DNA of 34,895 nt from Desulfocapsa sp. (GTDB taxonomy: Bacteria > Desulfobacterota > Desulfobulbia > Desulfobulbales > CG2-30-60-27), in assembly GCA_020717925.1 (NCBI GenBank), contig DYDL01000006.1, positions 1-34,895 of the forward strand, in the 5' to 3' direction. The position numbers and the translations under genes are program-made. Shown in pieces: positions 4,083 to 5,578 of the stretch. The notes under the pieces are model-generated. The model saw nothing but the letters and a program-made list of their open reading frames with translations, was not told the origin of the DNA and made no database searches. Each line of letters starts with the position of its first letter. Within the stretch, counting starts at the first letter, position 1.

Positions 4083-4913
4083 GTGGTAGAGAAGGACACC
4101 ATGGTACCCGTCAAAAGAGAGGCCCTCCCAGGAGATAACGACCTTTTCACCCTGGTCCGAAATGCCAGGAATTTTCTGGTCTACCACCATCTGCTTGGGA
4201 TCAAAAGCTACCCGGCCGGGCCTGCACTGCTGACTTTTCTCCACCCCACGCCGAACACAAGGGGGGTAGCCGTGGTAGCGCCCCGCAAAACAACAGGATC
4301 CGCCAGGCAATTTACCCCGGCAACTTCTCCTGACCACGATTCCCCACCCCGGCAAACGCAGCCCATCGGTGACCTCGCGGCTGTTCAGGCTGAACTGGAG
4401 GGATGCACCCGCTGCCTCCTCCATGAAAAAAGGCATACCCTGATCTTCGGTGAGGGCAAGGAACGCCCCCGGTTGATGGTCATTGGCGACTGGCCGGGCA
4501 CGGAAGACGACTGTGTCGGCCGTCCTTTCCAAGGGTCGGGGGGCGAGATGCTCACCAACATGTTGAAGGCCATCGGTCTGCCCCGGGAAGAGGTCTATAT
4601 CACCACCCTGGTAAAATGTTTGCCTCCGGCGGACCGCCCGCCCACCAGGGACGAAATTGCCACCTGTCTGTCCTTCCTGTTTCAGCAGATCGCCGCCCTC
4701 GCCCCCTCGGTCATCTGTGCCATGGGCCCACTGGCCACACAAACGCTTCTGGCCACGGATCAGCCCCTCACCCGGCTCAGGGGTAGCTTCCATAATTGCC
4801 ACGGGGTGGCGCTCATGCCCACCTTTCATCCACGTTTTCTGGAGAAGCATCCGGAAATGAAGAAGGCCACCTGGCAGGATCTGCTCTTGATCAAGAAAAA
4901 ACTGGCCAAGTAG
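4083..4913 (+). CDS. Family 4-like uracil-DNA glycosylase (Fe-S)
   Basis: CTRCLLHEKRHTLIFGEG, GDWPGTEDDCVGRPFQGSGGEMLTNML, VYITTLVKCLPP, MPTFHPRFLEK. Confidence 0.85.
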   Translation: MVEKDTMVPVKREALPGDNDLFTLVRNARNFLVYHHLLGIKSYPAGPALLTFLHPTPNTRGVAVVAPRKTTGSARQFTPATSPDHDSPPRQTQPIGDLAAVQAELEGCTRCLLHEKRHTLIFGEGKERPRLMVIGDWPGTEDDCVGRPFQGSGGEMLTNMLKAIGLPREEVYITTLVKCLPPADRPPTRDEIATCLSFLFQQIAALAPSVICAMGPLATQTLLATDQPLTRLRGSFHNCHGVALMPTFHPRFLEKHPEMKKATWQDLLLIKKKLAK

Positions 4914-4968: not shown

Positions 4969-5010
4969 AAAAAAAAAATGAAGGGCCGTTGCCGACCCTC
5001 CATTTTTTTT
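4969..5010. terminator. Bidirectional intrinsic terminator between the UDG gene (+) and the 34-aa ORF (-)
   Basis: AAAAAAAATGaAGGGccgttgccgaCCCTcCATTTTTTTT stem with A/T tracts on both sides. Confidence 0.8.
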
Positions 5011-5048: not shown

Positions 5049-5153
5049 TTACTTGCCGGTTTTCAGGCATCTCCTGATCACGACTTGAAAGGTGTCCCAA
5101 TTGGTGGTGGCAAGCGCCCCCTGTTTCGCGTAAGCCAGTTCCCTGTTGTCCAT
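5049..5153 (-). CDS. Putative 34-aa small protein downstream of cobalamin riboswitch
   Basis: Manual translation MDNRELAYAKQGALATTNWDTFQVVIRRCLKTGK*; GGAGGA Shine-Dalgarno 5 nt upstream of ATG; bracketed by riboswitch/terminator and a downstream terminator. Confidence 0.55.
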   Translation of the reverse strand: MDNRELAYAKQGALATTNWDTFQVVIRRCLKTGK

Positions 5154-5191
5154 GCAATCCTCCATCTAAAGTTGAGAATGAAGGTTTGGGG

Positions 5192-5229
5192 AAAAAATAT
5201 CCCAAACCGCATAAAACGGTCTGGGATAT
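5192..5229 (-). terminator. Riboswitch expression-platform intrinsic terminator
   Basis: Minus strand ATATCCCAGACCG-TTTTATG-CGGTTTGGGATAT-TTTTT: 13-bp stem (one G.U) followed by a T tract. Confidence 0.85.
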
Positions 5230-5284
5230 CCCTGTTATCCCGAGAACCAGCAACCGCCAACCCTTTCCACGAGGTTGTGCGATC

Positions 5285-5476
5285 AGAATATTCAGGCAGG
5301 TATTCTGACTCCCTCCCCTTCTGACGGCCTTCCCGTCCCGTGGCAACGAAACAGTGGCAGAAAAGTGTCAAAAAGTTCCCTTTTCCATGAATATAACAAG
5401 GGAGAGGATACAGCGGCGGGACCGTTCCCGGTTTGCACGGGATTCCCTGTTGTGTCGCAAGGACACCTGAATATTA
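5285..5476 (-). promoter_or_regulatory. Cobalamin (B12) riboswitch
   Basis: Minus strand AACAGGGAATCCCGTGCAAACCGGGAACGGTCCCGCCGCTGT (conserved core), then GCCACTG...CGGGAAGG...AGTCAGAATACCTGCC; P1 pairing between ATATTCAGGT and CCTGCCTGAATAT. Confidence 0.93.
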
Positions 5477-5578
5477 GAGGCAAGATTACAGGCAAACAGC
5501 GGCGGCAGTCAACGTAAAAACGGGGGCCATTCTTAAGACTTCCCTAATAGATGCAATCTAGCACGGCGCAAACGATCG

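Follow-up and report, generated by a model that had tools for sequence, protein, structure and literature searches.

A conserved small-protein family behind cobalamin riboswitches of Desulfobulbales, found at a riboswitch with no other apparent gene

A cobalamin riboswitch in a Desulfocapsa genome that seems to have nothing to control is followed by a 34-aa ORF, which is a member of an order-wide family in Desulfobulbales rather than a single-genome oddity. We consider it fairly probable that this locus, located in a 34,895-nt stretch of contig DYDL01000006.1 (hereafter the window), is a complete monocistronic gene whose product, a small helical protein repressed by B12, acts in trans, with a probable role in acquiring corrinoids or cobalt. 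The riboswitch, its terminators, the conservation of the ORF, the purifying selection on it, and its gene context were all established by computation; translation of the ORF, its response to B12, its partner, and its mode of action are inferences. Cobalamin riboswitches are usually interpreted via a large downstream gene, and those without one are set aside; here, behind such a seemingly gene-less riboswitch lies a conserved family of small proteins with recurrent links to btuB-like receptors and cbiK.

The riboswitch locus in the window

A first-pass annotation had described an orphan cobalamin riboswitch on the minus strand, followed by a terminator, a GGAGGA Shine-Dalgarno (SD) sequence, a 34-aa ORF, and a second terminator facing a convergent uracil-DNA glycosylase (UDG) gene. 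Each of these elements was recovered by covariance model, RNA folds, sequence, or Pfam search (Table 1), with the aptamer matching RF00174 over the full model length at 80.6 bits (gathering score, 31.5 bits). Terminator 1, a hairpin between the aptamer and the small ORF, is the riboswitch expression platform. Terminator 2 begins 39 nt past the stop of the small ORF and, U-rich on both strands, is possibly shared with the convergent UDG gene. Both terminator calls are based on RNA folds evaluated against shuffled sequences, and a simple consensus scanner reported no terminators over this region. As originally noted, no B12-related gene lies downstream of the riboswitch on the minus strand of the window.

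Table 1. Features of the small-ORF locus, in window positions
Feature	Positions	Strand	Evidence
Cobalamin riboswitch aptamer (RF00174)	5278..5485	minus	cmscan 80.6 bits, E 1.6e-18, model 1-189 of 189
Intrinsic terminator 1, hairpin and T run	5192..5231	minus	-24.1 kcal/mol, z -6.97 vs shuffles
Shine-Dalgarno GGAGGA	5158..5163	minus	from sequence
34-aa small ORF MDNRELAYAKQGALATTNWDTFQVVIRRCLKTGK	5049..5153	minus	ATG (at 5153) to stop (ends at 5049), 34 codons; profile and pN/pS
Terminator 2 hairpin, closing the monocistronic unit	4971..5010	minus	-24.4 kcal/mol, z -6.42
Uracil-DNA glycosylase superfamily gene, convergent neighbour outside the unit	4083..4913	plus	PF03167, E 9.8e-32

The second cobalamin riboswitch of this genome is on a different contig, ahead of a run of TonB-receptor, TonB, substrate-binding, permease, and ATPase genes that reads like btuB-tonB-btuFCD, with names assigned by eye. 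The btuB-like receptor in this run starts straight after a terminator, with no small ORF in between. A sister genome carries four more cobalamin riboswitches on a single contig (G001:C65; L049, L050), where the window genome has only one other, and B12 gene content may differ between the two genomes, or contigs may be missing. Relative to the window aptamer, that of the sister locus (L032) is missing 14 nt in the region of GCCACTG, yet it still scores 80.5 bits.

Distribution and conservation of the small ORF

A peptide search, suggested along with the original annotation, identified a 91%-identical ORF in the sister genome (E 7.9e-17) as well as more distant relatives, and every good match sits just downstream of a cobalamin riboswitch; a search seeded with a 48-aa relative yielded 11 loci. 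A family profile built from 16 protein sequences, using no RNA information, matched 121 of the 263 genomes of the order, spanning 38 of 69 genera, essentially as a single copy in each. Labels on named records bearing the ORF include Desulfobulbaceae, Desulfocapsaceae, and Desulfurivibrio, which makes Desulfobulbales the most probable identity of the order. Across a phylum sample of 396 genomes, full-length matches were limited to genomes of the same order, and the partial matches outside of it (E 0.002-0.01, 13-16 residues) were judged to be chance. Since the profile detected no such ORF in the other 142 of the 263 genomes, while cobalamin riboswitches are present in 55 of 58 sampled relatives, the small ORF is not essential to B12 regulation.

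The association with the riboswitch extends to the whole family. Among 100 further loci, 97 had an RF00174 match above gathering just upstream on the same strand, one (L110) had a marginal match (30.4 vs 31.5 bits), and two were cut by contig ends, i.e. a cobalamin riboswitch lies directly ahead of the ORF in all 98 loci with upstream DNA, counting the marginal one. Because the protein search used no RNA, this association represents independent evidence. Genomes bear up to 10 cobalamin riboswitches, yet essentially one family ORF. A hairpin and T run separate the aptamer from the ATG in 104 of 116 family loci, which marks it as a transcription-terminating switch, and the SD matches in at least 5 of 6 bases in 102 of 117 family members.

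Family members share the core M-x3-E5-x4-K10-x7-(D/N)18-W19-D20-x-F22-Q23-x2-(M/L/I)26-R27, and past residue 30 the tails differ in both length and sequence. In the solitary set, which was assigned by script from mechanically called ORFs so that single cases may be misfiled, W19, D20, and Q23 are invariant (42/42), as is E5 (41/41). The first alignment set was picked by similarity and the core was located partly by a motif (W or G, then D/N/E, any, F/Y, Q/L), which slightly favours invariance at the motif positions, but the freedom allowed by this motif is little used (W 116 vs G 1, Q 116 vs L 1).

Synonymous bias, another check proposed at the outset, was evident both locally and across the family. 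Between the window and its sister, the core differs by 7 synonymous and 2 nonsynonymous changes (omega ~0.06, binomial p 9e-4), and similarity in the DNA alignment drops right past codon 33. For 19 disjoint close pairs, largely from solitary loci, we counted 136 synonymous vs 75 nonsynonymous changes (pN/pS 0.134, p 2e-45), whereas the +1-frame control on the same DNA gave a pN/pS of 1.7; as the binomial p assumes independent changes and ignores codon bias, its exact value is unreliable and the frame contrast is the safer measure. These substitution patterns indicate that the small ORF is under strong purifying selection, and is neither a relic nor a product of chance. With selection acting on its amino acids, and an SD and start codon found across genera, it has the makings of a conserved small-protein gene.

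No significant match to the small protein was obtained in Pfam, NCBIfam, PHROGs (a hit at E 0.35), or the PDB, for which the profile hits, amounting to a 10-residue DWDSFQ stretch in actin-like protein 6A (E ~0.9), were considered chance. No description of the family was found in the open-access papers searched, subscription papers being outside the scope of this search. AlphaFold2 predicts a single helix over residues 3-32 with moderate confidence (pLDDT 78), and a Foldseek search with this single predicted helix returned no match, as expected. On the predicted helix, W19, F22, Q23, M/I26, and L30 fall within ~100 degrees on one face, with R27 at its edge.

Gene context and alternative explanations

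The surroundings of the small ORF vary between lineages. A TonB-dependent receptor, identified by PF00593/PF07715 in the one representative tested, is the next gene after the ORF in families f3, f4, f5, f8, f12, and f15, and in 19 of 24 TonB-receptor loci the stop of the ORF overlaps the receptor start (ATGA, TGATG, or similar; junctions read by eye). In six other loci, from five f6 genomes and separately from G575 of f13, the ORF is fused as the N-terminus of CbiK, the shared peptide amounting to 30 residues. The CbiK parts of these two fusion groups are only ~24% identical to each other, and the G575 part shares 51-63% identity with CbiKs encoded on their own. Since two different CbiK subfamilies are involved, the fusion is likely derived. 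A separate CbiK is found nearby at five loci. Finally, the ORF is solitary or has unrelated neighbours in f1 (window and sister), f3 genus g26, f6 genus g307, f12 genus g283, and most of f13. Judging from taxonomy labels rather than a tree, several of these context states must have arisen independently. Neighbours of solitary loci, named by eye, include FeoB-like, aminotransferase-like, Fe-S protein-like, and LysR-like genes; as these are unrelated to B12, only the riboswitch and the other lineages connect the ORF functionally with corrinoid acquisition. CbiK as the sole partner was ruled out, its presence across 58 relatives tracking the ORF poorly, with several carriers in f4, f8, and f15 that have no CbiK.

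Other genes and riboswitches were observed around individual loci. In five genomes from two genera (L127, L171, L175, L138, L108), an NrdJ-like ribonucleotide reductase gene, which looks like a B12-dependent class II enzyme, is found 417-879 nt beyond the riboswitch and small ORF, a distance too great to claim it as an operon partner. At L105:1996-3978, an SbmA/BacA-like ABC transporter, a type that imports B12 in mycobacteria, is found 354 nt past the small ORF. A divergent TPP riboswitch (L084:1099-1210) adjoins the cobalamin riboswitch of a CbiK-fused small ORF, and at L121 and L012 two cobalamin riboswitches are arranged divergently, such that one drives the small ORF and its counterpart points away.

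The original annotation offered three readings of the locus: a B12-controlled small protein, a riboswitch-terminated regulatory RNA, or the remnant of a lost gene. Of these, the small protein is strongly supported by conservation of the ORF, its synonymous bias and invariant residues, and the overlap coupling in relatives. A regulatory RNA with an incidental ORF would fit the short transcript and its two strong terminators, but amino acids rather than nucleotides are conserved, with synonymous-biased substitutions in the ORF frame against the high +1-frame ratio, and the SD and start codon are retained; we thus regard an RNA as the main product as very improbable. Were the locus what is left of a truncated cbiK or btuB operon, this would account for the peptide shared with CbiK N-termini, and for the receptor that follows the ORF in other families. 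Purifying selection, the proximity of terminator 2 to the stop, the solitary form in several families, and the apparently derived CbiK fusions leave this reading scarcely credible. It had also been anticipated that a transporter gene at the syntenic position in close relatives would betray a decayed locus; instead, the sister locus is equally solitary, and it is in other families that a btuB-like gene or cbiK follows.

Two further explanations were considered. As a cis-acting leader, it would couple or tune translation of a downstream btuB or cbiK, solitary copies being leftovers. The frequent stop/start overlaps at receptor loci are consistent with such a leader, for which termination-reinitiation at the AUGA of uPPE2 in M. 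tuberculosis is a precedent (PMC11260477). In the window, where no gene is downstream, no overlap of this uPPE2 type occurs. A pure cis coupler, however, requires no amino-acid conservation, whereas in many genera of several families the invariant residues are retained by solitary copies, for which pN/pS is 0.13, making this explanation unlikely. The other, which we consider distinctly unlikely, is an export or assembly factor: as an N-terminal domain, the peptide would assist the translation of exported corrinoid proteins (CbiK, TonB receptor) or their targeting to the membrane, acting in cis in the fusions and in trans elsewhere. CbiK and the receptor both seem to have signal sequences and the fused domain directly precedes a hydrophobic segment, but the solitary state has no exported corrinoid partner nearby, and EamA, DUF2162, and oxidoreductase genes also occur as neighbours.

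Proposed role and comparison with known systems

In our favoured reading, i.e. a small protein acting in trans, the cobalamin riboswitch would control a 34-aa cytoplasmic helical protein through a transcription terminator. When coenzyme B12 is sufficient, the terminator would form and transcription would stop; when B12 is scarce, the small protein would be produced. That the ligand turns the switch off is what we infer from RF00174 biology, and action in trans is suggested by the conservation of residues where the ORF stands alone. The helix face formed by W19/F22/Q23/M-I26/R27/L30 would probably dock on a conserved cytoplasmic or inner-membrane partner, itself functioning in B12 sparing or in the acquisition of corrinoids or cobalt. 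Where the ORF is the first cistron of a btuB-like operon, stop/start coupling would allow its translation to drive the receptor as well. In two lineages the small protein has become fused to the N-terminus of an exported CbiK.

More broadly, we see an even chance that this undescribed family of ~30-60 aa, the sole riboswitch output in many Desulfobulbales, is a trans-acting effector of B12 starvation controlling corrinoid or cobalt acquisition, with, for example, CbiK, the TonB machinery, or a B12 enzyme as possible targets. As a candidate protein effector of B12 starvation, the family is concrete enough to be tested. It accompanies B12 sensors in roughly half of this order of sulfur-cycling bacteria, and it warns that small first cistrons behind riboswitches are easily overlooked.

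MntS and FbpB are regulatory small proteins produced in response to shortage of a metal or cofactor, or to a need to adjust it; the proposed window protein resembles them in logic only, and we know of no sequence relation between them. The periplasmic cobaltochelatase CbiKP (PF06180) shares the 30-residue peptide as its N-terminus at the six fused loci, whereas the window ORF, at 34 aa and with no Pfam match, has no chelatase domain. The btuB operons under RF00174 control use the same aptamer family, and several families place the ORF between riboswitch and btuB-like gene, but the window genome's own btuB-like operon uses a separate riboswitch and no small ORF. A related arrangement is already known from uPPE2 and uMetE2 in M. 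tuberculosis, short translated ORFs tied to B12 riboswitches, of which uPPE2 is coupled to the next gene by an AUGA overlap, as in the btuB-type relatives described here, and uMetE2 shows limited conservation (PMC11260477). While these mycobacterial riboswitches act on translation (PMC11260477), the Desulfobulbales ORF follows a terminator-type platform, its amino acids are conserved order-wide, and in the window no gene comes after it; what is new is that a conserved small protein should, in many cases, be the sole product of a cobalamin riboswitch.
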